A stretch of DNA of 40,300 nt from a virus: positions 1-40,300 of IMG/VR virus record IMGVR_UViG_3300027881_000035. One strand, 5' to 3'. This document shows, piece after piece, positions 1,665 to 35,064 of this stretch. The notes below the pieces were generated by a model, which was not told where the DNA came from, ran no database searches, and was given only the letters and a program-made list of their open reading frames with translations. Both the position numbers and the translations under genes were made by a program. The stretch's first letter is position 1. Each line of letters starts with the position of its first letter.

Positions 1665-2063
1665 ATGGGAGCTATTCACAGAGTAATTCCCGCTGAGAAC
1701 GCGGGACAGGTATGGTGGTTTCATGGAAACTCCGGATCAGGAAAGACTAACCTTGCCCTCAGATTCGACGTCCCAAACAAGATCGTTTTGGATGCGGACG
1801 ATCTGCGGGAAGTGTGGCCAGGCCTTGGCTTTTCGAAAGAAGACCGATGGGAGCAGAACCTTCGAACTGCTCGACTGGCACGCATGTTCTGGATTCAAGG
1901 ATTCAACGTCATCGTCTCAACTATATGCCCGTACGCAGAGCTCAGGAAAGAGATACGCCAAATTGTTCCTTCTGTAAAGTGGGTATACGTCAATACACCA
2001 GAAAGCAAGCAGCCCTCTAAAGAATATCCATTTGAAGAGGGAGGATGGCAAAATGAAGTTTGA
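1665..2063 (+). CDS. adenylylsulfate (APS) kinase-like P-loop protein
   Basis: The 132-residue protein has a Walker A loop GNSGSGKT (residues 21-28), then LDADDLR (42-48), LGFSKEDRWEQNLR (54-67), a strand with ICPYAELR near 90-97, and VYVNTPES. These match in order the APS kinase signatures: P-loop, D-x-D-x-x-R, LGFS-x-x-DR-x-E-N-x-R, I-x-P-x-x-x-x-R and V-x-V-x-TP. APS kinase phosphorylates APS at the 3' hydroxyl to make PAPS, the donor used by sulfotransferases. The family is usually about 170-200 residues. This one lacks the RDPKGLY-type lid and ends in an abbreviated YPFEEG segment, so the substrate could differ, for example another nucleotide. A sulfotransferase gene lies in the same genome at 34363, which supports the PAPS reading. 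Confidence 0.75.
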   Translation: MGAIHRVIPAENAGQVWWFHGNSGSGKTNLALRFDVPNKIVLDADDLREVWPGLGFSKEDRWEQNLRTARLARMFWIQGFNVIVSTICPYAELRKEIRQIVPSVKWVYVNTPESKQPSKEYPFEEGGWQNEV

Positions 2064-2268
2064 GTGTAATGCTTGGATTACAGTAGTTCCAGTAATGAGC
2101 GCTACTCGGGAGGTTATCGGTGCTAAAATCGAAAATATCTATCGACGACCACACGAGGGAACTATTAAACTCTGTATATCAGTACCAGAGTCTTTCTTCA
2201 ATGCACCAGAGATTAGGGTCTCACTCAAAGAACGGGATCCTGAGATTTGGGAAGGCGCAGAAATATAG
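2053..2268 (+). CDS. hypothetical small protein
   Basis: This is a 71-residue product starting at ATG 2053, preceded by GAGGGAGGATGG, so the SD lies inside the end of the kinase-like gene, which it overlaps by 11 bases. An upstream in-frame ATG-like start at 2032 lacks such a site. The sequence alternates strand-like segments (AWITVVPV, GTIKLCISV) and ends in acidic residues. It has some resemblance in style to the following ORF (both place a short beta strand before a proline-containing turn), but I do not recognise a family. The function is unknown. Confidence 0.6.
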   Translation: MKFECNAWITVVPVMSATREVIGAKIENIYRRPHEGTIKLCISVPESFFNAPEIRVSLKERDPEIWEGAEI

Positions 2269-2318
2269 ATGTCCGACTCTGAGAGTAGAGGTGCACCCTG
2301 AAAGAATCACTGGAAGGA

Positions 2319-2768
2319 TTGGATGGAAATCCACATATTCCTACGCAGATCTTCGCCCACGTAATAATCGACGGTATGAAGATTGGGGCGCCGACCCTGC
2401 GCTTAGAGTTTGATCCACCAGACACCGTGGATTCATTCGCGCGGTACTTGGATCTTAGTCCTTGGCAGTATACGCCTATAATTGATGTGGTGAATGAGAT
2501 CTTTAGGGTCGACGCTGATGAAACTTTCGTTGGTCTTGATCCAGACAGTACGTATACAATTCGATGGGAGGCAGACACAAATGTTAGTATATACGGCGGG
2601 CCCGTACAGCCAGACAGCGGGAGTGGGAACAGTGGAGGAGAATATACAGAAGGCAACGGATATAGCAGCGGAGTTATGGAATATGGGGTATACAGTCCTG
2701 TGCCCACACATGAACTCAGCTGGTATGGAAAAGCTTACAACTCTATCAAACAAAGACTTCGTAGATAG
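2319..2768 (+). CDS. hypothetical protein, uncertain start, long overlap with the next gene
   Basis: The reading frame is open from 2289 to 2768. The listed start is TTG 2319, but its GGAAGG lies only a base or two upstream. A CTG at 2298 has AGAGG at an ideal six-base distance, giving 156 residues. Residues such as IFAHVIIDGMKIGAPTLRLE and the later TIRWEADTNVSIYGG look like a real beta-rich protein. The last 62 codons overlap the DUF4406-like gene in another frame and turn Gly/Ser-rich (SGSGNSGGEYTEGNG), so the natural end may be near 2600. The function is unknown. Confidence 0.45.
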   Translation: MDGNPHIPTQIFAHVIIDGMKIGAPTLRLEFDPPDTVDSFARYLDLSPWQYTPIIDVVNEIFRVDADETFVGLDPDSTYTIRWEADTNVSIYGGPVQPDSGSGNSGGEYTEGNGYSSGVMEYGVYSPVPTHELSWYGKAYNSIKQRLRR

Positions 2769-2982
2769 AGACTTGGAGATGGTGGAGCGGTGCGACGCCA
2801 TAGTGATGATGCCAAATTGGGAGTCTTCACTTGGGGCGGTCAGGGAACTCGAACACGCACGTCAGAATGATATTGTTGTGTGGTTTTGGCCGGACATACC
2901 TGTGGGAGCGCAAAAATCGTCGAAAGTCAGAAAAGGACACAGGCTTAAGGTGTTAGGCACTAGAATTGGTCTAACAAGATAA
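2581..2982 (+). CDS. DUF4406 / nucleoside 2-deoxyribosyltransferase-like protein
   Basis: The 133-residue protein begins MLVYTAGPYS, the nucleotide-binding first strand of the DUF4406 / nucleoside 2-deoxyribosyltransferase-like fold. This is followed by ENIQKATDIAAELWNMGYTV and CPHMNS (residues 41-46). Later, CDAIVMMPNWESS (71-83) and GAVRELEHA place a conserved glutamate (about E91) where the family carries its catalytic glutamate. The family cleaves or exchanges N-glycosidic bonds of nucleosides or nucleotides, and phage members are thought to act in nucleotide metabolism or defence evasion, though many are untested. The start ATG 2581 follows GGGAGG at a good distance. It overlaps the preceding ORF by 188 bases. 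Confidence 0.75.
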   Translation: MLVYTAGPYSQTAGVGTVEENIQKATDIAAELWNMGYTVLCPHMNSAGMEKLTTLSNKDFVDRDLEMVERCDAIVMMPNWESSLGAVRELEHARQNDIVVWFWPDIPVGAQKSSKVRKGHRLKVLGTRIGLTR

Positions 2983-2991
2983 GGGGGCGGT

Positions 2992-3231
2992 ATGAATACA
3001 AGTGAGCGTTGTCCTAACGGGTGCCCTGGCCACTCTATGATTAGACACGACGAAGGAATTGCGCTACACTTTGGAACTGTCGCTGGAGTACTAGGTGCTT
3101 TCCCTAATGGTAATGCCTACGGCCTGCAGCGACGCAACCAAGTCCACGAGGCTTGGTATAAATGCACCAATTGCGAACGGATGTATGTGTCGTCAGTATT
3201 CAAGCGCTTCAAAAGGATTAACATTGTTTAA
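2992..3231 (+). CDS. small zinc-ribbon-like protein (hypothetical)
   Basis: This 79-residue protein has an N-terminal CPNGCPGH and a C-terminal CTNCERMY, giving two C-x2-4-C knuckles that could bind one zinc ion. The middle contains a Gly/Ala-rich stretch (GTVAGVLGAFPNG) and a basic tail (FKRFKR). The ATG follows a GGGGGCGG purine-rich site. It lies directly before the HNH nuclease gene and overlaps it by 8 bases, so it may be co-translated with it. Zinc-ribbon proteins of this size are common near phage terminase genes but their roles are mostly unknown. Confidence 0.65.
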   Translation: MNTSERCPNGCPGHSMIRHDEGIALHFGTVAGVLGAFPNGNAYGLQRRNQVHEAWYKCTNCERMYVSSVFKRFKRINIV

Positions 3232-3748
3232 GTCATTTCCTAAACCCAAGCCCAAACGTAAAGGGCGAGCAGTGCGCAGAAACAAGTCTGTAGCACAGGC
3301 AGCACGTGACCGTGATGGTGCGTGTCTGTATGGGTTGCTCTATCAGGATGGGTGCGTAGGGATGCTGTCTCCACACCATATTGTCAGCTTCGGGTCAGAC
3401 CCACGTCAGGATGTGTTAGAGAACTTAGTCGTCCTGTGTAAAAAGCATCACAATCAGGCAGAGGCTCATGAGATAGATGTTAGGACTCTGCGTGGTATCC
3501 TGTATCACTTCTATGGATATGGTCCGGAAGAACACGATCTTGTTATACTGGATGAGATGCGTAAATTAGCAGCCGACTACGGTATGACATCAGTATTCAC
3601 CATGAACAACGATATGGTGCAGATAAAATGTATTGGGTTCGTCAATAGGTTCAGCCACATGTTTGCATGGGAGTCTATGGCACAGCCAGACTTCATGGAT
3701 ATGTTTGCTGCCCAACTTACTTTCTCACAAAGGAAAACCAATGTCTAA
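3224..3748 (+). CDS. HNH endonuclease next to the terminase, TTG start
   Basis: A basic N-terminus (PKPKPKRKGRAVRR) precedes an HNH fold: RDRDGACLYG, then SPHHIVSFG with His51-His52, ENLVVLC with Asn67 and Cys72, and KKHHNQAEAH with His75-His76. Phage HNH proteins encoded beside the terminase, such as HK97 gp74, stimulate specific DNA cleavage by the terminase during packaging, so this is likely a packaging nuclease rather than a homing enzyme. The frame is open further upstream, but that part reads as a shadow of the zinc-ribbon gene. TTG 3224 has AAAAGGA six bases before it, which decides the start and gives 174 residues. The C-terminal 70 residues are not recognised. Confidence 0.82.
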   Translation: MFKSFPKPKPKRKGRAVRRNKSVAQAARDRDGACLYGLLYQDGCVGMLSPHHIVSFGSDPRQDVLENLVVLCKKHHNQAEAHEIDVRTLRGILYHFYGYGPEEHDLVILDEMRKLAADYGMTSVFTMNNDMVQIKCIGFVNRFSHMFAWESMAQPDFMDMFAAQLTFSQRKTNV

Positions 3749-4358
3749 CGGAAAAAGAGGTCACGAAATCAACCTAGCGTCCGGTACGATGTTTTCGCCG
3801 GCGCAGGAAAATGCACGAATGCAGAAGGCACGGACTAAGCTTGCGATTGATTTGACGTTGCAGTTCATGCCCACCAAGGGTGTGTCTGTTGAGCACTTTA
3901 AGCGCCCGGGTGGGGTTCACGAATTCCACTTTGTGGACGATCAGGGTCGTAAGGCACGAAGAAGCCTTACTATCGACGCTATTAAAAAGGGCGGACGTAA
4001 TGCTTCATGTCATATGATGTATACTGTCCTAGATGATTATGGTATTCCATTTAGCTGGGATGAAGTTCCGGAGCAAGCAGAGTACGCAGAACCAGAGGGG
4101 CGTGTTCTTGTGGATCACGTAGGTGGACCGCCAGAGAATGCAGACCGCATTCCGCATACACCTGTCCCACCGCTTCAACCAGAGCCTGAGCCAGAACCCG
4201 AGACGGTACCAGATCCTGCACCAGACGTTGCATGGAATCCTGACTGGACCATCCCTCAGTTGAAGGCGTGGAGTAGCGAGAATGGTCATCCGGTGCCAGC
4301 AAGCATTACGCGCAAGGGTGACATTATCGAGTTTATAGCACGTGAGCATTCTAACTGA
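3741..4358 (+). CDS. hypothetical protein upstream of TerL, possible small terminase subunit
   Basis: This 205-residue protein starts at ATG 3741 behind AAAGGA. The N-terminal 110 residues are mixed helix and strand with many basic residues. A linker at about residues 145-165 is rich in proline and glutamate (QPEPEPEPETVPDPAP). The last 35 residues (TIPQLKAWSSENG then KGDIIEFI) fit a small SAP/HeH/LEM-like helix-extended-helix fold that can bind DNA or protein. Its position between an HNH nuclease and the large terminase suggests the DNA-recognising small terminase subunit. No classic small-terminase helix-turn-helix is evident, so this is a context-based guess. It overlaps terL by 17 bases. 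Confidence 0.55.
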   Translation: MSNGKRGHEINLASGTMFSPAQENARMQKARTKLAIDLTLQFMPTKGVSVEHFKRPGGVHEFHFVDDQGRKARRSLTIDAIKKGGRNASCHMMYTVLDDYGIPFSWDEVPEQAEYAEPEGRVLVDHVGGPPENADRIPHTPVPPLQPEPEPEPETVPDPAPDVAWNPDWTIPQLKAWSSENGHPVPASITRKGDIIEFIAREHSN

Positions 4359-5847
4359 AGCCGACGAACAATTACTAATAGCCGCTCTTAGGGAGAATGG
4401 TGGATTTGGACTAGCGTCTGAATGGTACCTATATGGTACTAAGCCACTCCCTAAACAGTGGGCATTTCACCACGCACCGGCGGCTAATGTTACCTGGCTA
4501 GGCGGTATTGCCTGTGGCAAGACGCGTGGCGTTGCTGCGTCCTATATGATGGACTGCCTGAGCATTCCCTATTTTCAGGCTCTGAATACTTCTGTAACAT
4601 CTGTTCAAGCAGAGCTGGCCTTTGAAATGGCCACGGAATGGATTGAATCCAATGATAGGCTGGAACACCTTATCGACAATGTCTCACTCCGACCTTATCC
4701 GCAGATTGACTTCAAGAACTACTCATCTTGGATTTTCCGTACTGCAGGTAAAGACGCGCGCTTCATTCGTGGACAGGAGTTTGATCGTATTAATTACGAT
4801 GAGGCAGGACTCGACTATGACGGAATTTCTCTTAAGACTCTGCGTGGACGGCTCCGAGGTATACGGCTCGACGGATCCGTTAGAATGGCTCGGCTCGATG
4901 TTACAACGTCGCCTACTGATGCTCCCTGGCTTCGGGAGCGTTTCTATAAAGGTGATACCTCCCACCATTCCGCTGACCTCAAGGACTATAACAGCATACG
5001 GTCGACAATCTATGAAAACACCTATCTAACACGAGAACAGATCCACCTCATGGAGTCTGACTACACCGACGAGATGGTAGATGTTGAACTCCTAGGTATG
5101 TTTCCGGATTATGGTATGACTACTTTTCCAAGAACACATGTAGCTGCATGTACTGAACAGGGACTAAACGATTTGATGACTGACGCCACCCGACCAGAGA
5201 CTGGTAAGCCAAAACCTGGGTGGAAGATTGAGGTACATCCACGTCACGGTATCACTCATTTTGAGATGCCTCCCGAACAAGACGGTATGTATTTGCTCGC
5301 CGGTGACCCGGGCACAGGGGACCCCCCTAAACGTAACGCTGCTTGTGTACTTGTAATTAGGGTCGACAGAAAGCCATGGACAGTGGTATACTTTGACTGG
5401 GTATACGGTCGTGGAGCGTACAGCCCATTCCTATCCTCTTTCAAATATGCGATTGACAAGTACACCCCTGTCTATAAGGGGATTGACACGACCGGTACAC
5501 AAAAGGCCATAGACGAACTTGCTTTCGAGAATGAAGGTATCATCGTCGATGGAATCAACTTCGCCAGCGATAAGCAGGCATTAATCAATGCTCTCTCAAT
5601 CGCAGTTACGAATCACTGGTTCCAGTGGCCATTAATCAAGGGTCTCCAATTTCAGATGCACCACTATAGACGAGAAATGGATACCAAGCAAAACAAGCAA
5701 CCTCAAGATATCGTTATGACGCTGGGTATTGCTGCTTATCTTGCGCGCTATATGCCGGGAGAACTAAAGGAAGCTGCAAATAACCGACGCAATGGCGGAC
5801 GTCCATCACGACGTACAAGATCCACACGAGTACGGAGACATAGATAA
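4342..5847 (+). CDS. terL: terminase large subunit
   Basis: The 501-residue packaging motor has an N-terminal ATPase domain and a C-terminal RNase H-like nuclease. The ATPase shows a Walker A variant LGGIACGKT with Lys60, and a Walker B RINYDEAG with Asp153-Glu154. The nuclease acidic residues appear as GDPGTGD (Asp322), GIDTTG (Asp382) and QPQDIV (Asp456), the usual three positions. The tail is strongly basic (RRNGGRPSRRTRSTRVRRHR), likely for DNA or portal contact. The start is GTG 4342 inside the previous gene; the SD is weak, so coupling is likely. The stop overlaps the next ATG as TAATG. The neighbours (HNH before, portal after) fit packaging. Confidence 0.95.
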   Translation: MSILTEADEQLLIAALRENGGFGLASEWYLYGTKPLPKQWAFHHAPAANVTWLGGIACGKTRGVAASYMMDCLSIPYFQALNTSVTSVQAELAFEMATEWIESNDRLEHLIDNVSLRPYPQIDFKNYSSWIFRTAGKDARFIRGQEFDRINYDEAGLDYDGISLKTLRGRLRGIRLDGSVRMARLDVTTSPTDAPWLRERFYKGDTSHHSADLKDYNSIRSTIYENTYLTREQIHLMESDYTDEMVDVELLGMFPDYGMTTFPRTHVAACTEQGLNDLMTDATRPETGKPKPGWKIEVHPRHGITHFEMPPEQDGMYLLAGDPGTGDPPKRNAACVLVIRVDRKPWTVVYFDWVYGRGAYSPFLSSFKYAIDKYTPVYKGIDTTGTQKAIDELAFENEGIIVDGINFASDKQALINALSIAVTNHWFQWPLIKGLQFQMHHYRREMDTKQNKQPQDIVMTLGIAAYLARYMPGELKEAANNRRNGGRPSRRTRSTRVRRHR

Positions 5848-6128: not shown

Positions 6129-6136
6129 GAGGCTGA

Positions 6137-7077: not shown

Positions 7078-7078
7078 C

Positions 7079-7107: not shown

Positions 7108-7120
7108 CAGGAGTTAGAAC

Positions 7121-7330: not shown

Positions 7331-7333
7331 ACT

Positions 7334-10335: not shown

Positions 10336-10344
10336 TAGGTAATA

Positions 10345-22700: not shown

Positions 22701-24170
22701 GTGCCTAAAAATTACTATGACGGTATGGCTCTGGTGGTTGGCGACGGGCCTGGCAAAGGTACGGTATACCAGATATCTGACTATGACCACATTGCGCCAG
22801 ACCAGTGGGTGCCAAGCAGAACCTATCTACCACCCGACAATGCCGCTGACCACATTGATGACCCAGCGCATGGCAACTGGGTTGATGAGGATTTGAGTAG
22901 AGTCTTTGTAATGCGCAACCCATATGGTGCCATTGGTGAAGGAACAGTCTTTGAGATCTACCCATCTCTTACAATAGAGGCACGTGGCACTCAGGACACA
23001 ACAGCTACTGCGCATGGTGCTGGGCATGTGAGTATTTACTCTGATTTGTCTGTGGCATGCCAAGAGATACGCTACTTCTCTGGTGAAGTTGATATGCGCC
23101 TAGAGGATATGGCCAAAGAGCTTTGTGCCAAGTCTGGCGTGATGGAGTTCTCTGCGGGGAAGAGCTACAGTGGCGACTGGGCTACTGGTACAACTGATGC
23201 CACTGCAGAATGGATTTCTGGTGATCGCCGACACAGTATTGTTAAGTTCGATCACCCGGGCGATACTGCCTCACTTTCCGAGATCGGAATCATTGTGCGT
23301 GCTGATGTAGCCGATTTGGCTACAGCTACGCAGTACTATAAACTAGTGTACAAAAACTTTGCATCCTTCTTGGGTGTTGAGCTGCAGATCTTGCGGGCTG
23401 GAGAACAAGAAGCAGTGACTGTAGAGCGGTGGCCTATTTGGTACTCAGTGCCTCAAGGTACGATAACGATGTCTGTACAAGAGGGCTCGTTTAGTACGTG
23501 GCTGAATGATAAGCATCTTGTGACTTTTCACAATGACGAGATTGAGACCGGTGAAGCAATGGGAATGTACTCCTACAATTTCAATGGTACTATTGCTAAT
23601 ATTGACTGGTCTGAGCTAGATATTCGGACTGATAACTTCGTACTAGACTTGGGATATCGTGGCGCCCAGCTCTTGAGCGGACTGATTGGACCTAAGAAGA
23701 TAGTTTATCAGGATACTTCAACAGGTGGGATCTACATGGAGCGAGTGCGTACATCGGGCGACCCTGAGTATGAGCTCACCGATTTGACAGTTGAGGCTGG
23801 TCGGTCGTCGAGTGACAGTGCTCTGGTTAACAGGGTACGCGCTGAAGGTGCCGAGATTGCTGAAGTAGTGGACTGGAGCAGCTTCCAAGAGGAAGGTAAC
23901 TTGTTCTTCTTGGTGAACGCCACAGAGGCTAATGATCTGTGGGAGACAGAGACGGAAGCAACGTTTATTCTAGAGGACTCACATGCGTCAGTTGATATTC
24001 ATGGCTTTGTGGGTGCGGCTGACCCACGTGTAGAAACGAATGACATCATCCGTGCGCGTACTGCAGAGGGAGTTCACGATCTGTCTGTAGATTCGATCTC
24101 GTTCCGGATGATGATTAACAGCAACAGTGCTGTATTTGATATGCAGATTGAGGGACGCGATGCCAGTTGA
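19710..24170 (+). CDS. large tail protein, hub or baseplate candidate
   Basis: The 1486-residue protein begins MRDVPNDYMSLVDSVRRVG. It is beta-rich throughout and acidic, with many aromatic residues. Around residues 900-1000 lies a Trp/Gly/Tyr-rich block (GYGYTYGNWGH, GWGANHKWDNW) that may be a carbohydrate-binding or lectin-like patch. The C-terminus (about 1320-1486) has VEAGRSSSDSALVNRVRAEG and ends FRMMINSNSAVFDMQIEGRD, resembling the C-terminal parts of phage tail hub proteins. Its length is far above a minimal hub, so it may carry extra receptor-binding domains. The start overlaps the previous stop by one base, and the stop overlaps the next gene by 11 bases. Confidence 0.6.
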   Translation: MRDVPNDYMSLVDSVRRVGTRFTFRDERLLFEKFDPQSGLGAPDLDEGLYFDSCSLSKGRGIFRVAIDQSSSFLMYQYIPDPTTVPWPSWEGSPAGVFADCRPGCVDVNGNAQIIALKNYGGEDQFVRMIFDTDAGTLSNPQQLDAIRTDDFTIGGGPGEYSIAEHQGMAIAPVDEDEFFVQFFPYTDTRSINQAIIQYWRIDGSTTYFHEFRGGVYGDMAHALRFDAVQLGAYNYIFTSDNEYGRPLMFKMQQLWSLGAYQLGDWSDGTHILPIDVLDDTSYMKLGGAEIINDQIWVTGRLKRGSDIEMEMYMYGDGNFSIGRDMYIGNSDSLQDERSGKLVYSHGYLWYLGWDDHSKAPATTLVGYENFDNLYATRDVVNFTVQQRKSSSLGITSQLSSSADHDAIRKNSKVTVDVGLEDDTGVWEWAQMGVFGVDALSRDFFDAGNSRTMVGRGNGSKRLAQWTSDAFYDYWSQAKLAANPAVLSEVIRVSGLWSTDEDFDEDALEGSGDPIRLDRLNEQGILYTTAKASRNGQTVGKFWVPENELPPHKMHGRFGVGLNYYRESRGQAAERLEKDSGDITDEEFGDNGIFAMIGPEEHNDAEGIGLYTVKDSVWYKVYSEAYSYSKNVWNWLMLSFNEGHIKVNVATTYVAPTYSSEVLWSEKFDIRYDPEYSSGLFSEPWFRDQRGRGALAILNMSAYSDTPGFTSTSTVIPVEAVSMFPTSETVIVDSEIIDYNGKQTADVYPGEMNWAPGETHLAAEHDNPDWNDIKIHHIDWVPGNAGSIVLANNANYNLLTSQAFLGPYGDERIDRARIVVRREGLPSFPLYALIVNDDFDNGGNFIVGVGRHGAPIVTHCSAPVAGHTVPTSYDWVEFDFSNVPEPMRWLHDAYRRSGKGFFICITTIPFHYVSDTYGYGYTYGNWGHDTSNFYHVKLDDTVSATTGVWLGWGANHKWDNWQWYFDRDTMMPFEIYGIGNTPSEGYEIYIDGHGPNAVPKNYYDGMALVVGDGPGKGTVYQISDYDHIAPDQWVPSRTYLPPDNAADHIDDPAHGNWVDEDLSRVFVMRNPYGAIGEGTVFEIYPSLTIEARGTQDTTATAHGAGHVSIYSDLSVACQEIRYFSGEVDMRLEDMAKELCAKSGVMEFSAGKSYSGDWATGTTDATAEWISGDRRHSIVKFDHPGDTASLSEIGIIVRADVADLATATQYYKLVYKNFASFLGVELQILRAGEQEAVTVERWPIWYSVPQGTITMSVQEGSFSTWLNDKHLVTFHNDEIETGEAMGMYSYNFNGTIANIDWSELDIRTDNFVLDLGYRGAQLLSGLIGPKKIVYQDTSTGGIYMERVRTSGDPEYELTDLTVEAGRSSSDSALVNRVRAEGAEIAEVVDWSSFQEEGNLFFLVNATEANDLWETETEATFILEDSHASVDIHGFVGAADPRVETNDIIRARTAEGVHDLSVDSISFRMMINSNSAVFDMQIEGRDAS

Positions 24171-27100
24171 TACTAACATCCCCAATACCGTAATCGATGT
24201 TCTTGATCAAATCAAGGACAAGCGCCCTACCGAGGCGATTGTCTATGGTATTGATGGCGACCGTGTGGACATTCGTCTTGAGAATTCCGCATCTATTGTG
24301 CGTCACGTTGAGGTTGTGGGCAGCGTTGACTCTATCTCTACCGGATCTGTGGTGCAGATCTCGTGGCGTAATGATGGACGTCCGGTGGTTATTCTGGTGG
24401 GCTCTGGTGGCATAACAAGCACACGTGGCTCCACTGTGGTTCCGGACAATGTCACAATTGAGAATTCCAGCTTTGGTCTCCGAGTTAAGAAGGGCGGTAT
24501 TTCTCGAGAGCACTTGTCCTTTGTATTGCCCGACGAGCTCGTGGGGTCAGACTCACTCACGCGTGCTGGGTGGATAGTTAACGAGAGCACTGGTGTTATT
24601 TCCAATACTGGTATCCGCATCCTACCGACCGGTGAGATTGCACTGGGTAGCGGCAATGACATTGTTAAGCTGTCAGCCTTTGGTTCTCCGGACGACCCAG
24701 CAAGCCCTGAAGATGACACTGAGTACCGACTGTGGATTGGTAATGTCCTTCCACATGCGGCGCCCTTTGCCGTTACGAAGTATGGAGAGCTTATCTCCGA
24801 AAAGGGTACAATTGGTGGCTGGGACATCACTAGCAATGCATTGGTTTCCGATGCCGGAAATACTACCCTGCATGCAGGCGCCAGACCATGGATTGGTATT
24901 GGCACTGATGTCTACGGTGGCAACGGGTTCTGGGCCGGTCTAGATACCGACTATGTTTACAAGGTTTCGGTGGGCAGCTCGTTCCTGTATGACGGTGACA
25001 CGCTGACGCTCAGTGATATCGATCTGAAGTTCTATAACGGCTCACAATTGACTCTGTGGATCCAAGACGACGGTGATTTCTTCATTGGCGATGACATCGA
25101 TACAGTCGCTGGTACCAGCATGCGCATTTTCTCCAACGACCAGACGTGGGACTCTGAAGCGTTTGGTGCTGGAGATATATTCATTGGTGACCACTCCGGC
25201 GCCAATATTCTATGGGATCAAAGCACCGGTCAACTACTCTTCCGTGATGGTGGTACTACCGGTATTCCAACTGAACTATACATTGACACAGACGGTACTC
25301 TGAAAGCGGGTGGTGGAAACATCATTCTTGACTCGAGTGGTATCTCCTCGTCTACATACGTTGCGGGTATATCCGGCTTTAGTATTGATACCGCGGGAGA
25401 TGCTGAATTTAATCGCATCACTCTACGTGGCAGCCTGCAGGCAACGGTATTTGTAGCTGATGAAGTATCCGCCGTTGGTGGCGACCTGATGGTGCTGGAT
25501 GCCGACGAGCTTGCCGTAGACATGACAGCCCTAGATGCCTCAACACTGACCATTGTGGGCAACACAACGTTTGCCGTCGGTGATATGCTGCGCATTAAAG
25601 AGGGTACTGATGATGAGTGGCTGGAAGTGACCAATATTGGCTCAGCCCCTACATATACAGTGACTCGAGACAAAGAAGCAGCATACACAGCAAACAACAA
25701 TCCAACGTGGGCAGCGGGTGCGGCGGTAGTGAACTATAAGCAGTCCGGAGATGGTGGCATTCGTCTCTTGAGTGGCGCATCTCCGTCCATGTCAATCTTT
25801 ACACACGCTGGTGCTCCGTGGACAACGATCACCGATCACGTCCTCTTGGAAGAGGACATCTCTCGATTTGGCCAAGATGTGTCTGCAGCTGGCACGACTT
25901 CCATGGCCGTTCTTCACATTGATCAAACCTATAATTCTGAGAGTCTTGGCGCTGGTGACCTAATCATAGGTGACAACACCGCAGCTAAAGCTAATGTTCT
26001 TTGGGATAAGTCTGCAGGGACGTTGCTGTTTCGTGGTGGCACAACTACTGAAGGATATATTGACACTACTGGTACTGCTGTCTTTGGTAAGTCTGAGCTG
26101 AACTCTCTTGGAATAATTTTGTATCCGGAAGCCCAACAATCATTTGAGGATGATGCCTCAATTCGATGGGTATCTAACCCTTATCAAGTACCGGTTGAGA
26201 CTGGTGGTGTCGCTTCGATACTTGCAACTAGGTGGAATGATACTGCCAAGATGGCTGCCACTCGTTTCATAACTGGCTCAGATAACATTGCCACTGTTCT
26301 GGACACTAAACTGGCCATTCTGGATATGGTAACTATTGTAGGTGACGAAGATGAATATAGTGGCGCCATCGCAAACCGATCCTCTGGCTTGAAGCTAAGC
26401 TCATATGGAATAGGTACTAACGAGAATGAAACTTTTGCCTTCTTCCATTTTTCAGACTTCTTGACAGACTCAGGCATGGGACCAATGGAGTTTAAGGTAG
26501 ATACTTTGAATGGTCATGCTTGGGTTGCTATGCGTGGTACTAATGATCGCGGTGCCTACTCCTTTGGCATGGAGGAGGTCGGCGTCGATGAAAAGGGAGG
26601 ATTTATATTTTCATCAGAAGATCAGATCGATGCGGCCGATGAAGAAATATACCGAATCGAGGGTTATGCAACTCCAGGACACTTCTGGATTAACCCACAG
26701 AATCGGGACCTCGATTTCCGTGTAGATGGCGATACTTACGATTCCTTGTTCTTTATTGATGCCTCCCTCGACAAAGTGTACTACAAGGGAGTAGAGATTG
26801 GCTCATCTACATCCGAGTGGTCAGAGTCAGGTGGATTCCTGACGCAGAATACTGGAACAGATATTGTACAGATTCAGAACCATATGGAGCTCGAGGAGTT
26901 GGGTGGCCAGCCTGGTACGGGTGAGCCCGGTACTGGTTGGGGAGCTATATATTTTAAAACCGACGGCAAGGTATATTCCAAGAACGACGGTGGCGTTGAA
27001 TTCGATCTTACTCAAAGTGGCGAATGGCTACAGACAGGTCAGTTTCTCAGCCAAACAACAACCACTAACATAGTTCAGGTGCTGAACTGGATGGAGGTTG

Positions 27101-30100
27101 AAGAACTGGATACCGCCAGCCTACCAACTACTGGTGAGCCCGGGACAGGCTTTGGTGCCATCTATGTCAAGGCTTCAGATAGCATTCTGTATTACAAAGA
27201 TGACGGTGGTACCGAATACGATCTAACATCTGGTGGCGGCGGTGGTGGCGGGTGGACTGATGGAACTAACGTCATATACCCAACGGTTGCAGCCGATGAT
27301 GTCTTGTTTGGTGGTACGACAGTAGGGAACTCCGACATCATACTCTATGGCACGGGCCAGGCGACATTTAACGAGCAGGGTGCCGATGTAGACTTCCGAA
27401 TAGAAGGTACTACTGGTAATACCAGCACATACCTGTTCTTTGTTGATGCAGGGAGTGACCGTGTTGTTATTTCTGCTGGTGGCGCTAGTGGTCCTACTGC
27501 TGATAGCCCTCTTGTGCTATTGAGAGGCAATAAAGATCCCATCTTGATGATGGAGCCGTTTGACTCAGGACAGAATCATGTTAAGTTCATGATGAAGAAC
27601 TCTTTGGGTCATGGTTTTGACTTCCAAATGGTGGATGACTACTTCCGGATGAACTATGTTGATAAGGGTTCCGGACGTGGCGTTCTTGATAATATGTGGA
27701 AGGTACAGTCCTCATCTGCGGGTGTTGGAAACATCTTCTTTAACGATAGCAAGCTTGACATCGACATGTATTTCAAGAGCGACACCTACGATCACATGAT
27801 TCGTATTGATGCTGGGACTGACACAGCTGGGTTTGGTACAACAAGCGCTTTCAACCTTGCACAGTTTGCTCCTACTGACATTGCTATCAATAAGGATAGT
27901 GGCAACATTGACTTCAGAGTCTATGGTGACAATGGCGAAGTATTCCGAATCGACGCCGGCCTCGATGTGGTACAGATCTCAACATGGCTAGAGTTTGCCG
28001 AGACAGCATCACCACCTACGACTGGATTCCCGGGATCGGGATTTGGTGCTATCTATGTTAAGACAGACGGCATCATCTATTTCAAGAATGATGGCGGTAC
28101 AGAGTACGATCTAACCGAGACTGGTGGTAGTGGCTCTGTAGACGACACTCCATATGGGACTGCATGGGATGGGGAAACTACTCAAGCGCCATCGCAAAAC
28201 GCCGCTTTTGATAAGATCAATGCGATGGATACTTTGATTGATGCCAACACTACTGTCACAGAGGTAGAGGCAGTGATTACGGCCGAGATTGTCGACGGGC
28301 AGAGTATCGATAACGCCATTGATGCTTTGATTACTGCACACGTTGGTGTCACTGATCCTCATACGGCTTACTTTCTTGCTGATGGTAGCAGACAGCTAGA
28401 TGGCGACCTGACATTCACTGGTACGCAGGAAATTACAACCTCATCGGGCGACCTGAACATTAGCGCAGCTGATGATCAGGATATTCATATATTTGTTGAG
28501 AACAGCCCTCCTAGCGCTAATGGGCAGTGGGCTCACATGGATTTGGGAGGTACCACTGGCCCAGTTGGTGCTGGCTTTGGGTTCGTTTTGTCTATATCCG
28601 ACCAGGACTACTCACGTAATGTCTTGGCCATAGAAGAGACATTCACTGTCTTTAACTATGAGTCTATAGACACTGATTTTCAGGTTCAGAGCGATGGTAA
28701 CGCCTATATGCTCTTCGTTGATGGTGGCGAAGATCGTGTTGGTATAGGAACTGGTACTCCATCAGGTTTCTTTGAAGTGTTCGAGGCAGGCACTGGCCGA
28801 ACTGCTGGCTCGTTTATGGTGGATGAAGCAAATGATACTGTCTATGTAGGGCGACTGTCATCGACAAGTGCTGACAACACCCTATTCTTCACTGTACGTA
28901 ATCGCCTAGACGCTCCTGTCTTTAGTGTTGACCTCAACGAAGGTGTACTGCTACTTACTGAGAAAACGGGTTTGCCTAGCACTGGGATTCCAGTATCAGG
29001 TCAGGGTGCAGTCTATGCCATGAATAATGGCAAGCTGTACTTCAAGAACGATGGTGGCACAGAGTATGATCTTACCGTTCAAGGTGGGTCTGCTGAATGG
29101 ACTGAGTCTGGCGGATTCCTAAGCCAGGCTGCCGGTACTGATATTGTACAGATCCAGAACTGGATAGAGCTTGAAGAGCTAAGCACAGCTGGTCTCCCAA
29201 CTACTGGTGAACCTGGGACTGGCTTTGGAGCTGTATATGTGAAGGCATCTGACGGTATTCTGTACTTCAAGAACGATGGTGGCACAGAATATGATTTGAC
29301 ACAGGCTGGTACTGCTGCGATAGATGATACCCCATACGGTACTGCATGGGATGGAGAAACTACCCAAGCTCCATCACAAAACGCTGCCTTTGACAAGATT
29401 GACTCGATGGATACCCTTATCGACGCCAATACAACAGCTACAGAGGTAGAGGCCATTATTACTGCAGAGATTGTTGATGGGCAGAGTATTGATAATGCCA
29501 TCGATGCTCTTATTACTGCACACGTTAGTGTTTCAGATCCACATACAGGATACTTTTTGCTAGCTGGAGAGACAACTGATGCTAAGCTGTATTCTAGTGC
29601 AGATCTTATTCTCTATACCGACGCCGGATCAACTAAGGCAATAACTCTAGATGCTGGTGCAAGCACCATATACTGGGGTGTTGGAAGTGGTGACACAGAG
29701 AACTATATCAACGCTACTACATGGTTGAAGTCGGCTGTTGGACCATCGGCAGGCTATGTTTATTTGCAGTCAGGGTCTTTCTCGTTTCTCAGTGGCTCTA
29801 AGGGCTCTGAGGTTGAGAGATTTAAGTCCGATGCGACGGCCTTCGATGTTACTGGAAACATTACAGTTAGTGGCCTAGTAGATACAGTAGACATTGCGGC
29901 ATTCAAAACAGCTTATGACAGTCACAGCCATAGTGGCAGTGGTCAATGGATTGACGACACTGGCGGCTTCCTATATCCTGAAGAAGTGGCTGATCACGTG
30001 ATTATTGGTAACGATGCGATTGCAACAGCAGATATTTACCTAGGTGCTGATGGCGCAGCGGTCTTTAATGAGCAGGCTGGTTCTGTAGACTTTCGTATTG

Positions 30101-30804
30101 AGGGCAATGCCGAAAGCAATCTATTTAAGGTTGCCGGTGTCTCGAACGTAGTCATGATAGGTGCAAGTGCAGTTCCATACAATGAGGTTCGACTCCACAT
30201 TCAAGATGATCGCACATGGGATACAGGCATTGACGCCTGGGCTGAGATGTCGCTTGGAGATACTACCGAGGCACAGGGGCTAACCTTTTTGGCATCACTG
30301 GCTATGCCCGCCGCAGGCTATTCAATTCTCTCAACCAATATGCGTTTTGATGCTGACATAACCAGCTGGGAGGGCCCACTAGACGCAGCTTTCTATGGAG
30401 CCGATTTCCAAAGTGTTGTTAGTTCATCAGCGGCAGAGTTCCATTTCTATGGCTATATGAATGATACCGGTAGTACGTCCATTAGCCTGGCTCACATAGC
30501 CACTGATGAAATCACCTTTAACGTCGGTATGAATGATATTGACTTTGTGGTGTCTGGAGATACTGATCAGTATCTATTCAATATTGATGCCGGCCTTGAC
30601 ATTATCAACATGAACGACACAACTTTCCACACCTATTTTGATATGGAGGACGTGACTGTTCCCGGTACGCCAGGCTCAGGGTATGGGCGAGTACACATGA
30701 ACAGTGACGACATTTTCTTCATAGACGATAGTGGTACATCTACATCTCTCACTGGAGGGGGCGCTGGTGGAGCTGATGTTTTGGAAGTACAGGTATTCTC
30801 ATAA
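24160..30804 (+). CDS. giant tail fibre / baseplate protein with internal repeats
   Basis: From ATG 24160 (SD GAGGG; the ATG-like start at 24127 lacks an SD) the protein has 2214 residues. Residues about 15-95 look like an OB-fold domain (VDIRLENSASIVRHVEVVG, VVQISWRNDGRPVVIL), as at the base of tail hub and spike proteins. Beyond residue 890 six fibre-like units end in K-x-D-G-G-x-E-Y-D-L-T, and segments such as FFVDAGSDRV or LFVDGGEDRVGIG recur, typical of phage fibres. An 80-residue module (DDTPYGTAWDGETTQAPSQN) is present twice. A Gly/Ser run occurs near 1025. No C-terminal auto-cleaving chaperone motif was seen. It probably binds the host receptor. Confidence 0.78.
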   Translation: MPVDTNIPNTVIDVLDQIKDKRPTEAIVYGIDGDRVDIRLENSASIVRHVEVVGSVDSISTGSVVQISWRNDGRPVVILVGSGGITSTRGSTVVPDNVTIENSSFGLRVKKGGISREHLSFVLPDELVGSDSLTRAGWIVNESTGVISNTGIRILPTGEIALGSGNDIVKLSAFGSPDDPASPEDDTEYRLWIGNVLPHAAPFAVTKYGELISEKGTIGGWDITSNALVSDAGNTTLHAGARPWIGIGTDVYGGNGFWAGLDTDYVYKVSVGSSFLYDGDTLTLSDIDLKFYNGSQLTLWIQDDGDFFIGDDIDTVAGTSMRIFSNDQTWDSEAFGAGDIFIGDHSGANILWDQSTGQLLFRDGGTTGIPTELYIDTDGTLKAGGGNIILDSSGISSSTYVAGISGFSIDTAGDAEFNRITLRGSLQATVFVADEVSAVGGDLMVLDADELAVDMTALDASTLTIVGNTTFAVGDMLRIKEGTDDEWLEVTNIGSAPTYTVTRDKEAAYTANNNPTWAAGAAVVNYKQSGDGGIRLLSGASPSMSIFTHAGAPWTTITDHVLLEEDISRFGQDVSAAGTTSMAVLHIDQTYNSESLGAGDLIIGDNTAAKANVLWDKSAGTLLFRGGTTTEGYIDTTGTAVFGKSELNSLGIILYPEAQQSFEDDASIRWVSNPYQVPVETGGVASILATRWNDTAKMAATRFITGSDNIATVLDTKLAILDMVTIVGDEDEYSGAIANRSSGLKLSSYGIGTNENETFAFFHFSDFLTDSGMGPMEFKVDTLNGHAWVAMRGTNDRGAYSFGMEEVGVDEKGGFIFSSEDQIDAADEEIYRIEGYATPGHFWINPQNRDLDFRVDGDTYDSLFFIDASLDKVYYKGVEIGSSTSEWSESGGFLTQNTGTDIVQIQNHMELEELGGQPGTGEPGTGWGAIYFKTDGKVYSKNDGGVEFDLTQSGEWLQTGQFLSQTTTTNIVQVLNWMEVEELDTASLPTTGEPGTGFGAIYVKASDSILYYKDDGGTEYDLTSGGGGGGGWTDGTNVIYPTVAADDVLFGGTTVGNSDIILYGTGQATFNEQGADVDFRIEGTTGNTSTYLFFVDAGSDRVVISAGGASGPTADSPLVLLRGNKDPILMMEPFDSGQNHVKFMMKNSLGHGFDFQMVDDYFRMNYVDKGSGRGVLDNMWKVQSSSAGVGNIFFNDSKLDIDMYFKSDTYDHMIRIDAGTDTAGFGTTSAFNLAQFAPTDIAINKDSGNIDFRVYGDNGEVFRIDAGLDVVQISTWLEFAETASPPTTGFPGSGFGAIYVKTDGIIYFKNDGGTEYDLTETGGSGSVDDTPYGTAWDGETTQAPSQNAAFDKINAMDTLIDANTTVTEVEAVITAEIVDGQSIDNAIDALITAHVGVTDPHTAYFLADGSRQLDGDLTFTGTQEITTSSGDLNISAADDQDIHIFVENSPPSANGQWAHMDLGGTTGPVGAGFGFVLSISDQDYSRNVLAIEETFTVFNYESIDTDFQVQSDGNAYMLFVDGGEDRVGIGTGTPSGFFEVFEAGTGRTAGSFMVDEANDTVYVGRLSSTSADNTLFFTVRNRLDAPVFSVDLNEGVLLLTEKTGLPSTGIPVSGQGAVYAMNNGKLYFKNDGGTEYDLTVQGGSAEWTESGGFLSQAAGTDIVQIQNWIELEELSTAGLPTTGEPGTGFGAVYVKASDGILYFKNDGGTEYDLTQAGTAAIDDTPYGTAWDGETTQAPSQNAAFDKIDSMDTLIDANTTATEVEAIITAEIVDGQSIDNAIDALITAHVSVSDPHTGYFLLAGETTDAKLYSSADLILYTDAGSTKAITLDAGASTIYWGVGSGDTENYINATTWLKSAVGPSAGYVYLQSGSFSFLSGSKGSEVERFKSDATAFDVTGNITVSGLVDTVDIAAFKTAYDSHSHSGSGQWIDDTGGFLYPEEVADHVIIGNDAIATADIYLGADGAAVFNEQAGSVDFRIEGNAESNLFKVAGVSNVVMIGASAVPYNEVRLHIQDDRTWDTGIDAWAEMSLGDTTEAQGLTFLASLAMPAAGYSILSTNMRFDADITSWEGPLDAAFYGADFQSVVSSSAAEFHFYGYMNDTGSTSISLAHIATDEITFNVGMNDIDFVVSGDTDQYLFNIDAGLDIINMNDTTFHTYFDMEDVTVPGTPGSGYGRVHMNSDDIFFIDDSGTSTSLTGGGAGGADVLEVQVFS
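26815..29301 (+). repeat. fibre protein repeat units (DGGxEYDLT)
   Basis: Five related units were located by eye: 26815-27012, 27022-27228, 27961-28116, 28951-29076 and 29095-29301, with a weaker sixth at about 30646-30760. Each carries a T-G-x-P-G-x-G-x-G-A-I-Y-type stretch and, in the first five, ends with an aspartate-rich D-G-G-x-E-Y/F-D-L-T. They encode a repeated beta module along the fibre shaft. Copies differ at silent and replacement positions, so they are not recent tandem copies. Confidence 0.75.
28138..28377 (+). repeat. 80-codon fibre module, copy A
   Basis: It pairs with copy B at 29320-29559; both are exactly 240 bases in the same frame. They share 72 of 80 residues by hand count, with 33 further codons that differ only silently. 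The motif DTPYGTAWDGETTQAPSQN resembles segments found in other phage fibres. Confidence 0.8.
29320..29559 (+). repeat. 80-codon fibre module, copy B
   Basis: The second copy is related to 28138-28377, lies about 1.18 kb downstream and is again preceded by a DGGTEYDLT unit. It ends DPHTGYFL where copy A has DPHTAYFL. The repeated pairing of a DGGTEYDLT unit with this module suggests duplication of a larger block. Confidence 0.8.
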
Positions 30805-30808
30805 ACGC

Positions 30809-30837: not shown

Positions 30838-30855
30838 TTACCCAGGAGGCTAAGT

Positions 30856-32023: not shown

Positions 32024-32035
32024 GAGGGAACATCC

Positions 32036-32332
32036 ATGCCCGTCGATCTACTACCCCTTCCCGAATCAGAACAAAGCGAACTGTTGAACGCAGTGAAAGA
32101 TATAATGCACAATGGCGGACGCATCCCACAAGACGTGTCTAATGAACTAATCATGGCTGCCATTCTCGAGCTCAACGGTTGCGTTGTTCGGAATGCTAAT
32201 CAGTCACGTCGTAACGCGCTTGGTATGCGATGGATCACTGGAGGCTTGCTAATTGTCGCAGCAGCGTTAGTGTTTACACATTCAAGCGAGTTGAGTTTTC
32301 TTACAGATATACTGAAGTTTTTCGTACCTTAA
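32036..32332 (+). CDS. small membrane protein, possible holin
   Basis: The 98-residue protein has one membrane segment near residues 66-82 (RWITGGLLIVAAALVF) and a short tail (LSFLTDILKFFVP) that could be amphipathic. The N-terminal 60 residues are soluble and acidic, with NQSRRNALGMR just before the membrane helix. It directly follows the endolysin, the usual place of a holin or pinholin, and its SD AGAGGG precedes the ATG. One helix only makes it atypical for a classic holin; an antiholin or a virion membrane protein is possible. Confidence 0.55.
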   Translation: MPVDLLPLPESEQSELLNAVKDIMHNGGRIPQDVSNELIMAAILELNGCVVRNANQSRRNALGMRWITGGLLIVAAALVFTHSSELSFLTDILKFFVP

Positions 32333-32333
32333 C

Positions 32334-33011
32334 ATGGACTTCGCAGATTTTAAGGGCATCCATAAGGGTGAGGAGGTTATCTGCATGGGTAACGGGCCAA
32401 GCCTAGATAACGTATCCCTTGACTTTCTTAAGTCGAGACCATCCTTCGGGTTGAACTATATGCCGATCTACAACGACCTCTTGGATGGCTTCTTACCTAC
32501 ATATTGGCTTGCGCTGGACCAGCATCCTACTGAGGTCATTCAATCATTGCCACGCGATCTACCAAAGTTCATACCAGAACGTAAGGTGAAGACATTCGAG
32601 CAAGCGAATGATCAGGCACGTAGAAAGGACGAGGAAGAACCATATCCTAGTCTTGTCGGGTTTAAGATGAGAGACATGAAGCAACCAGCCGCTATGGGAT
32701 ATGGATCTAGTTTGATAGCAGCAGCGCATGTAGCTGGTGCTCATATGGAAGCGAAGCGAATCTTCTTAGTGGGATTCAATTGTGAGAAAGCCATGAGGGG
32801 CAAGAAGCCCTATGTCATGGGGAAAGTAGGGTGCCCACATTTTTACGATCCCGATCATGAGGGCAAACCTATGAAGGGGTGGTGCAATCAAATGGGTATC
32901 TATGCTAAGTGGCTGGAAAAACGAGGACAAGAGATGATTAACCTCAGTCACCCTACCACTTGCACATCAGTACCGCAAGGATTCTTTTGGGACTACTTGG
33001 AGGTAGAATGA
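32334..33011 (+). CDS. DUF115-like putative glycosyltransferase (paralogue 1)
   Basis: The 225-residue protein begins with KGIHKGEEVICMGNGPSL (residues 7-24), a nucleotide-binding glycine turn like that of the DUF115/MptE-like and CST-type sialyltransferase-related proteins. It continues with FLPTYWLALD and later RIFLVGFN and HFYDPD (about 170). In cellular homologues such proteins act on surface or flagellar sugars. A second copy sits at 33723. Relative to that copy it has an inserted basic stretch (VKTFEQANDQARRKDEEE). The start ATG 32334 comes one base after the previous stop. Sugar donor and acceptor cannot be read from the sequence. Confidence 0.62.
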   Translation: MDFADFKGIHKGEEVICMGNGPSLDNVSLDFLKSRPSFGLNYMPIYNDLLDGFLPTYWLALDQHPTEVIQSLPRDLPKFIPERKVKTFEQANDQARRKDEEEPYPSLVGFKMRDMKQPAAMGYGSSLIAAAHVAGAHMEAKRIFLVGFNCEKAMRGKKPYVMGKVGCPHFYDPDHEGKPMKGWCNQMGIYAKWLEKRGQEMINLSHPTTCTSVPQGFFWDYLEVE

Positions 33012-33274
33012 ATCTAATTAAGCAGCTGAAGGAAAGACATTCACTCGAAAAGCTCAAACTCTTCGAGAAATTGTATGCTCAGATAGAGCAAGAAGCGAAA
33101 GCAGTAAATGACCCCAGGGTGGACAACCCAGGTGGCGTCTCAGAGCAGCTACAGGCTATCAGAGAGGCGATCTACGAGCTTTCTATCGATAATGGGATTC
33201 CTATCCCAAATGTTACCGTAAGCGTTAAAACGCTGGTTTTAAAGGCCCAGCGTGGCGTTGACGTTAAGGAGTAA
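33008..33274 (+). CDS. small helical protein (hypothetical)
   Basis: With ATG 33008 (GGAGG five bases upstream, overlapping the previous stop as ATGA) this is an 88-residue protein: a helical N-terminus (LIKQLKERHSLEKLKLFEKL), a helix (EQLQAIREAIYELSID) and a short beta end (NVTVSVKTLVLKAQRGVDV). It lies between a glycosyltransferase-like gene and a virion protein gene. No family is recognised. The charge pattern and the two helices could be a small structural or chaperone-like protein. Confidence 0.68.
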   Translation: MNLIKQLKERHSLEKLKLFEKLYAQIEQEAKAVNDPRVDNPGGVSEQLQAIREAIYELSIDNGIPIPNVTVSVKTLVLKAQRGVDVKE

Positions 33275-33277
33275 GTT

Positions 33278-33721
33278 ATGGCCGAAGGCGATGGCTACAT
33301 ATACAACAACTTTAAAGAACAAATCCTGAATGGTGAGTTCAATTTGGGGTCTGCTGGTGACACTATTAACGTCATCTTGGTAAGCGGACACACCCCCGAC
33401 ATTGACGCTGACTCTGGTCTTGCCGACGTCTCTGGAGACGAGTATGGCACCGGGTCAGGATACACAGTCGGAGGTGAGTCACTTACGTCACAGGCGACAG
33501 TTCAGAACAACACAGATGACCGTGGTGAGTTTGACGCTGTAGACCTAACTTGGTCCTCACTGGGAGCGTTGTCTCCTGCTACCCCGTCACATGCGATTAT
33601 GTATGACTTTACGCATGCGTCAGATCTTCTGATTGCTTACTGGGTATTGGGCACAACGGCGACCAATGGTGGTGATTACACCTTGCAGTGGGGCGCCAAC
33701 GGTATCATGTTGCTGACGTAA
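33278..33721 (+). CDS. virion (appendage/decoration) protein
   Basis: The 147-residue beta-rich protein begins with GYIYNNFKEQILNGEFNLG, then VILVSGHTPDID, GTGSGYTVGGESL and LTWSSLGALSPA. This is a well-spread phage structural-protein pattern (Y-N-x-F-K/E, an aspartate-rich loop, G-Y-x-x-G-G), often found among tail or head appendage genes. It sits between two glycosyltransferase-like genes. A three-base gap separates it from the previous gene, with AGGAG near the start. The exact location on the virion is unknown. Confidence 0.68.
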   Translation: MAEGDGYIYNNFKEQILNGEFNLGSAGDTINVILVSGHTPDIDADSGLADVSGDEYGTGSGYTVGGESLTSQATVQNNTDDRGEFDAVDLTWSSLGALSPATPSHAIMYDFTHASDLLIAYWVLGTTATNGGDYTLQWGANGIMLLT

Positions 33722-33722
33722 C

Positions 33723-34382
33723 ATGCGACTACAAGACTTCAGGAACATTCACGAGGGTGAGAACATCCTGTGCATTGGGACTGGTGCTAGTTTACTTAAT
33801 ATACCAGTCGATTTCCTAAGAAGTATGCCGTCGATTGGCATTAACTATCTGCCATACTATAGTCACTTGATAGATGATTTTATGCCAACGTACTGGATAG
33901 CACTGGATGCTACGCCACCTAAAGTAATGCTGAGCATGCTCCCTCCTGAGATGCCTCGGTTTATACCGAATCGCATGGAGAAGAGATTGCGTGCTGCCAA
34001 CGTAGATCTGACTGGTGCAGTGTTTTTTGAGATAGCGGCTATGCCCAGACCTGACAGGGCTGGGTATAGTACTACCATGGCTGCAGCAGTACAGCTGGCT
34101 CTTTACATGGGAGCAGATAATGCTCTCGTAGCAGGATTTGATTGCACGCGTGGCCACAAGAGTGGGGCTCTTCCAGAGCCCGGTAAGACAGGCACGCCGC
34201 ACTTTTACGATCCAGACCAGGGGAGGCAGTACATGCCAGGCTGGGATAAAAACATTAGTCAATTTGCTGAGTGGGCAGATGATATTGGCCGTAATGTATC
34301 GAACATTAGTGAGCCCACGCAGGCTAAACTAGTACCACAGAGTAACTACCGGGAGTGGGTTGATGGCGAGATCGCAGACTAA
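33723..34382 (+). CDS. DUF115-like putative glycosyltransferase (paralogue 2)
   Basis: This 219-residue paralogue of the 32334 product aligns from the first residues (NIHEGENILCIGTGASL against GIHKGEEVICMGNGPSL). It shares the FMPTYWIALD strand, a later NALVAGFD and HFYDPDQ near residue 165. The proline of the GPSL turn is replaced by alanine (GASL), so donor binding may differ. The two copies flank the 33278 virion gene. The start ATG is one base after the previous stop. The end overlaps the sulfotransferase gene by about 20 bases. Activity needs testing. Confidence 0.62.
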   Translation: MRLQDFRNIHEGENILCIGTGASLLNIPVDFLRSMPSIGINYLPYYSHLIDDFMPTYWIALDATPPKVMLSMLPPEMPRFIPNRMEKRLRAANVDLTGAVFFEIAAMPRPDRAGYSTTMAAAVQLALYMGADNALVAGFDCTRGHKSGALPEPGKTGTPHFYDPDQGRQYMPGWDKNISQFAEWADDIGRNVSNISEPTQAKLVPQSNYREWVDGEIAD

Positions 34383-35064
34383 CCTACCGGTATGCTCGAT
34401 TTCGGCACCGAAAACTGGATCCCACATGTTGGGATTTGGCTTGGGACTAACATCCCAACCTACTTATCACCTGAAATCTGGGGGCACAAAGGGAGAATTT
34501 CGCTCTGTAGAAGAGCAGATACACACACTTGACAGACGGAGACAAGCTGGCATCTGGGCGCATATTGGGTATTCACCTACAATGGAGCAGTACCTACAAG
34601 AGCGCTTCACTGCCACATTCTTCATTCGTCGAGATCCGCGAGACGTTGTGGTAAGTCTAGCCCACTACCACGACAAGCTTCCGGCTGCATCAATAGACCT
34701 GACGTTTCCTGATAACACCAGCATGTCTGAGATGGAGTGGGACGAGAGGCTCCTGTGGCTGATCACATACTGTGGTCTAGCTCTGCCACACTACACAGGA
34801 TGGATTCGAGATGGTGTCTACCAAGTGAAATATGAAGATGTAGTTGACTATCGCGAGCGCGAGTTTACTAAGATTCAAGAGTATCTTGAAGGTCTTGGAT
34901 TGAAACCACCGCCTGGCGAGAAGATGGCAGAGATGTCAAGAGACCCGCATAAACTAAGTTTTAGACGGGGCAAGTACGGCGACTGGAAAGAAACATTCAC
35001 CTCCAGACACGTAGAGTGGGCTAACAAATACCTAGGTCATGTAATACGTGACTGGGGCTACTAA
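34363..35064 (+). CDS. sulfotransferase (PAPS-dependent type)
   Basis: The 233-residue protein has the 5'-phosphosulfate-binding loop SISAPKTGSHML (residues 12-23, equivalent to the P-K-S-G-T/S motif) and the 3'-phosphate motif FFIRRDPRDVVVSLAHYH (86-103, Arg89/Arg93 and Ser98). A conserved Y-E-D follows, then the C-terminal FRRGKYGDWKETFT (R-K-G-x-x-G-D-W-K). These are the signatures of the cytosolic-type sulfotransferase fold, which transfers sulfate from PAPS to hydroxyl or amino groups of sugars, peptides or small molecules. An APS-kinase-like gene at 1665 could supply PAPS. ATG 34363 is preceded by GGGAG; a TTG three bases before it is the alternative. The acceptor is unknown. Confidence 0.85.
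   Translation: MARSQTNLPVCSISAPKTGSHMLGFGLGLTSQPTYHLKSGGTKGEFRSVEEQIHTLDRRRQAGIWAHIGYSPTMEQYLQERFTATFFIRRDPRDVVVSLAHYHDKLPAASIDLTFPDNTSMSEMEWDERLLWLITYCGLALPHYTGWIRDGVYQVKYEDVVDYREREFTKIQEYLEGLGLKPPPGEKMAEMSRDPHKLSFRRGKYGDWKETFTSRHVEWANKYLGHVIRDWGY

Follow-up and report, generated by a model that had tools for sequence, protein, structure and literature searches.

An adenosine 5'-phosphosulfate kinase-like protein with a shortened lid and a sulfotransferase in one phage, and the linkage of their families in phage operons

The stretch of DNA analysed here, referred to as the window, spans 40.3 kb of a linear viral contig (IMG/VR record IMGVR_UViG_3300027881_000035, positions 1 to 40,300) that represents an incomplete phage genome, as its last open reading frame (ORF) runs off the end. 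Besides terminase, portal, major head protein, tail genes and an endolysin, it encodes an adenosine 5'-phosphosulfate (APS)-kinase-like protein and a sulfotransferase of the type that uses 3'-phosphoadenosine 5'-phosphosulfate (PAPS). The kinase gene precedes those for terminase, portal and major head protein, and the sulfotransferase gene follows the tail genes and the endolysin. We confirm the initial annotation of this DNA on both protein families and on their position among virion genes (coordinates in Table 1).

The kinase matches Pfam APS_kinase over profile positions 2-111 of 152 (E = 7.1e-17; 62.3 bits, cut-off 21.1) and contains the motifs GNSGSGKT, GFSKEDR and TICPY (residues 86-90), while its score against NCBIfam apsK (63 bits) lies below the cut-off of 138.7. 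Its AlphaFold model has a predicted local distance difference test score (pLDDT) of 85, and all top 50 PDB fold matches are APS kinases. When the residue roles described for CysC of Mycobacterium tuberculosis (PMC4373884) are mapped onto the protein, K27 is the P-loop lysine, D45 the catalytic base, R48 and R61 grip the phosphosulfate and F56 stacks on the adenine; the last four correspond to the APS-binding residues Asp480, Arg483, Arg497 and Phe492 of CysC, respectively. K27, D45, R48 and R61 are invariant across 24 aligned kinases. Fold and catalytic residues, which it had been suggested to check, agree with an APS kinase on the APS side and not at the lid. About 22 lid residues (RDxKGLYxKAR...FTGI) that would otherwise separate the YV(N) strand from the PYE motif are gone and ESKQPSKEYPFE remains, a remnant composed of a short basic stretch and a PYE-like motif. 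Within it, K115 is aligned with Lys or Arg throughout the clade of short-lid kinases described below and is a candidate substitute for the lid residue Lys562 of CysC. Against the relative in contig L002 (91% identity), the ratio of nonsynonymous to synonymous substitutions (dN/dS) is ~0.04, the lowest among the genes compared, with synonymous sites near saturation, which indicates purifying selection on the kinase. Of 50 viral contigs sampled via a random 14-mer, none has a match to APS kinase that exceeds the cut-off; together with the low dN/dS, this argues that the presence of the kinase is not due to chance.

The sulfotransferase matches Pfam Sulfotransfer_1 above the cut-off (E = 3.7e-7) and, in sequence, the PDB sulfotransferase 5x2b (E = 4e-4). 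PAPS sulfotransferases are defined by two features, a lysine in the strand-loop-helix of the 5'-phosphosulfate binding (PSB) loop and the motif RxxxDxxxS (PMC11625862), and both are present in the window enzyme (K17 and R90-D94-S98). No close relatives were detected in IMG/VR or among GenBank phages.

Close relatives of the kinase were found in 10 viral contigs. Contig L002 is a fragment from the same phage type, colinear with the window from position 165 to the major head gene and ending before the tail region. Eight contigs (L003-L010) belong to another, marine and well-sampled phage group and encode a kinase 66-69% identical to that of the window, inside a large cluster of genes that resemble glycosyltransferases, epimerases and deacetylases when read by eye. 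The kinase is also found in L050, which is filed as a Flavobacteriales metagenome-assembled genome (MAG) contig and is near-identical to phage contig L003. Relatives of the terminase (L051-L053) are fragments that reach neither the kinase nor the sulfotransferase region and are therefore uninformative on co-inheritance of the two genes.

In a phylogenetic tree, the window kinase groups with 10 other short-lid kinases (clade support 95/92), separate from kinases that are fused to a nucleotidyltransferase. Six of the 11 members have a sulfotransferase in the same record (the window, L011, L062, L063, L065 and L066), a count that includes a sulfotransferase below the Pfam cut-off in L063 and one ~12 kb away in L065. 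The co-occurrence across related phages that was to be looked for is thus seen in these six records, whereas the eight marine contigs have the kinase only. In L011, a sulfotransferase, a sugar dehydratase-like gene, a nucleotidyltransferase, a DUF2061-like membrane protein, the kinase and a glycosyltransferase-like gene stand in a row. With the nucleotidyltransferases of L011 and L049 as queries, 342 viral relatives were retrieved and 80 loci were kept, most of which have an APS-kinase-like gene adjacent or fused to the nucleotidyltransferase. In L062, L063 and L066, the nucleotidyltransferase gene is followed by the kinase gene and then by the sulfotransferase gene, in frames that overlap or almost touch, and the operons of L062 and L066 are surrounded by structural-looking genes. 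L096 and L111 show the order sulfotransferase, kinase, nucleotidyltransferase, with a 4-base overlap at the first junction, and in L070 and L105 a sulfotransferase adjoins the nucleotidyltransferase with no kinase recognised.

Sulfotransferases are enriched in records with the nucleotidyltransferase. Sulfotransfer_3 occurs in 11 of 50 nucleotidyltransferase-bearing records and in 1 of the 50 random viral contigs (Fisher p = 0.004), and when only matches over cut-off are counted in 10 of 50 module records and in none of the random contigs (p = 0.001), although both p-values are optimistic, as the records are related within groups. The sulfotransferase lies ≤ 1 kb from the module in 8 of the 13 records that have one, where uniform placement would give 1.2. 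The short-lid kinase clade is linked to sulfotransferases in other phages, both by operon and by presence in the same record.

Our best explanation, which we hold to be probable, is that this phage provides enzymes for the two final steps of a dedicated PAPS-type sulfation pathway. The short-lid kinase would phosphorylate the 3'-OH of APS to yield PAPS, and the sulfotransferase would use PAPS to sulfate an acceptor synthesised late in infection. The most likely acceptor is a virion tail component, either glycan or protein; a host surface glycan is possible. APS would be supplied by the host and, in other phages, possibly by the accompanying nucleotidyltransferase. Because relatives of the kinase stand in sulfotransferase operons of several unrelated phages, such phages probably sulfate a target of their own, be it tails or a surface sugar. 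Activity of the lidless kinase on APS, use of the same PAPS by both enzymes of the window phage, and the nature of the acceptor are inferred. The earlier proposal, that the kinase supplies the donor of the sulfotransferase, is partly supported: the families were named correctly and the link is strengthened by the operons of other phages, whereas the missing lid and a marine group with no detected sulfotransferase count against it. The suggested target, a phage appendage or a host glycan, stays a conjecture.

Several observations, in addition to the relatedness within the enrichment sets, weigh against this explanation. In the alignment, Lys562 and Arg559 of the CysC lid have no counterpart in the window kinase; in CysC, catalysis and ATP binding depend on these residues, Lys562 being catalytic and Arg559 stacking on the ATP, and the lid has to close (PMC4373884). 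Canonical APS kinases need this lid with its catalytic lysine, so that PAPS formation by the window kinase is only presumed. The two genes are separated by ~32 kb in the window. Neither a nucleotidyltransferase nor an ATP sulfurylase was found in the window, so that the host would have to provide APS if the nucleotidyltransferase gene is not located in the portion of the genome that the record lacks. In L003-L010 and in the stretch of L050 around the kinase, sulfotransferases went undetected. Moreover, the operon nucleotidyltransferase is nearest to nicotinamide mononucleotide adenylyltransferase (NMNAT) in sequence and fold, not to ATP sulfurylase, of which no family gave an over-cut-off match in 24 records (sub-threshold matches only). 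Its identification as an ATP sulfurylase is therefore unsupported; its product may be APS or a different adenylylated compound. A bolder version, in which many phages share a self-contained cassette that generates its own donor through a minimal kinase lacking the lid and through an NMNAT-like adenylyltransferase, the latter serving as an ATP sulfurylase unlike those known, with virion tails or tail glycans being sulfated, appears doubtful to us.

The same NMNAT resemblance favors another view, namely that the kinase is a nucleotide or nicotinamide adenine dinucleotide (NAD(+))-pathway enzyme descended from APS kinase, and that its co-occurrence with a sulfotransferase in the window phage is incidental, as the distance between the two genes would allow. 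Fused kinase-nucleotidyltransferases outside the clade adjoin NADAR, MazG, DNA methyltransferase or purine genes (adenylosuccinate synthetase-like), usually with no sulfotransferase, which also speaks against the sulfation pathway. These distant fusions fall outside the window clade in the tree, however, and the neighbors within the clade are sulfotransferases and glycan genes, and we consider this view unlikely. The fused forms do show that a kinase-nucleotidyltransferase pair alone is not diagnostic of sulfation, for which the clade and the operons count; the notion that every such pair is a PAPS synthetase was rejected, given the nucleotide-metabolism settings of the fused forms and their general lack of a sulfotransferase.

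We give slightly less credence to a third account, in which the product of the kinase is some 3'-phosphonucleotide donor distinct from PAPS and the sulfotransferase-fold enzyme moves another group. The model is Cj1415, which acts in this way on CDP-phosphoramidate (CDP, cytidine diphosphate) in Campylobacter capsule synthesis. CDP-phosphoramidate kinase is similar to APS kinase. It is known as a kinase of a capsule pathway (cited in PMC6429109). The absent lid may imply altered chemistry, and the partner nucleotidyltransferase does not belong to the ATP sulfurylase family; yet the kinase retains both arginines that hold the phosphosulfate and the stacking Phe, and the window sulfotransferase has canonical Sulfotransfer_1 PAPS motifs. 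The usual interpretation of viral cysC, a boost to host assimilatory sulfate reduction that would be independent of the sulfotransferase, seems very improbable here. Reviews and surveys place viral cysC in sulfur metabolism or assimilatory sulfate reduction, an unvalidated assignment (PMC12713726, PMC12766990). PAPS reductase was found in none of 24 kinase- or module-bearing records, which disfavors this role, although the records are fragmentary and the enzyme could be provided by the host; in relatives, the kinase is surrounded by sulfotransferase, glycan and virion genes.

If the phage does encode a PAPS-type sulfation pathway, sulfation would join the known phage modifications and many 'sulfur AMG' (auxiliary metabolic gene) annotations would be corrected. 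The linkage gives phage sulfotransferases and cysC a common meaning, in which PAPS is made and the phage's own or the host's surface is sulfated, and it raises the enzymological question of how an APS kinase works without a lid. The nearest functional parallel is rhizobial. NodPQ provides dedicated PAPS synthesis in rhizobia. NodP/NodQ with NodH (PMC11625862), and with NoeE, resemble the proposed pathway in that PAPS synthesis is dedicated to a sulfotransferase decorating one glycan, and one of the phage sulfotransferases weakly matches NoeE. The Nod system differs in being bacterial; its kinase is canonical and carries a lid, and its ATP sulfurylase is genuine, whereas in the phage module the lid of the kinase is short and the partner, where there is one, is NMNAT-like. 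Compared with CysC and the PAPSS kinase domain, the window kinase shares the fold, P-loop, LDGD-type motif, APS-side arginines and Phe, and lacks the Arg559/Lys562 lid and the C-terminal ATP-clamp residues (132 aa versus ~175-200). The window sulfotransferase has the PSB lysine, RxxxDxxxS and an RKGxxGDWK-like motif in common with cytosolic-type sulfotransferases (Sulfotransfer_1, e.g. 5x2b), from which it differs in being phage-encoded and in its lack of close relatives.

Among Caudoviricetes, annotated sulfotransferases are also known from cyanophages S-SKS1 and S-SRM01, near glycan genes in the latter, and from OM43 phage contigs, where Sulfotransfer_3 occurs; unlike the operons described here, no APS-kinase partner was reported for them. 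Phage sulfotransferases have been described as of unclear function (PMC10580990). Phage sulfotransferases and phage cysC have each been reported before, separately, and the operon linkage of both is new here: the literature searched, which covered few subscription papers, contained no paper joining a phage cysC-type kinase and a sulfotransferase in one module. In Stenotrophomonas and Xanthomonas phages, phrog_10255, named only 'kinase', joins an APS-kinase-like domain to the same kind of nucleotidyltransferase; it differs in being fused, in having its relatives outside the window kinase clade and in having no sulfotransferase annotated nearby. This fused APS-kinase-like and NMNAT-like protein is widespread (L078, L082, L089, L092, L099 and others), and in L092 its neighbors, read by eye, are an adenylosuccinate synthetase-like gene and an IMPDH/GMP reductase-like gene.

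Next to the sulfotransferase gene lie two genes that had been described as DUF115-like glycosyltransferase paralogues. They are indeed adjacent paralogues (40% identity), whereas the family assignment is weakly supported: neither exceeds the PF01973 cut-off, paralogue 1 scoring 18.5 against the required 34.6 bits and paralogue 2 giving no match. A glycosyltransferase role may be suspected. No close relatives of either were found in IMG/VR.

Table 1. Location of the kinase, the sulfotransferase and other features in the window and, where a contig is named, in other records
Feature	Location	Strand	Remarks
Short-lid APS-kinase-like protein, presumed PAPS-forming kinase	1665..2063	+	132 aa, ATG start
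P-loop GNSGSGKT, residues 21-28	1725..1748	+	K27 = Lys456 of M. tuberculosis CysC
GFSKEDR, residues 55-61	1827..1847	+	APS-binding Phe56 and Arg61 = Phe492 and Arg497 of CysC
Shortened lid ESKQPSKEYPFE	2001..2036	+	Alignments to 5cb6 and the canonical L068 kinase
Nucleoside 2-deoxyribosyltransferase-like gene	2494..2982		Near the kinase; kept in L002 (66%)
Very long tail-region ORF	24127..30804		2225 aa
Paralogue 1, weakly DUF115/MptE-like, possible glycosyltransferase	32334..33011	+	PF01973 E = 0.0018, below cut-off
Paralogue 2	33723..34382	+	Overlaps sulfotransferase gene start; no Pfam match
PAPS-dependent sulfotransferase	34363..35064	+	233 aa, ATG start; TTG one codon upstream also possible
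PSB loop PKTGSHM, residues 16-22	34408..34428	+	K17
3'-phosphate binding motif RRDPRDVVVS, residues 89-98	34627..34656	+	R90-xxx-D94-xxx-S98
FRRGKYGDWK, residues 200-209, PAPS-contacting C-terminal motif	34960..34989	+	Aligned to FRKGVVGDW of 5x2b
DUF2061-like	L067:5717-6463		Weak or by eye
DUF2061-like	L008:10388-10588		Over cut-off
DUF2061-like	L011:5322-5537		Weak or by eye
DUF2061-like	L049:4101-4307		Weak or by eye
Fused APS-kinase-like and NMNAT-like protein	L092:3778-4584		phrog_10255
2OG-Fe(II) oxygenase-like and tryptophan halogenase-like genes	L096:8296-11869		Directly after the operon

The last 1035 residues of the very long tail-region ORF had no close relatives when searched against IMG/VR. 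A record filed as 'Pseudomonas phage Y4' (L061, OQ572406.1 18392-29732) encodes a histidine-kinase-like protein, a canonical APS kinase and a sulfotransferase-like protein; being unverified, bacterial-looking and possibly misassembled or mislabelled, it was set aside. Small DUF2061-like membrane proteins adjoin or are fused with APS-kinase-like genes in several phage contigs.

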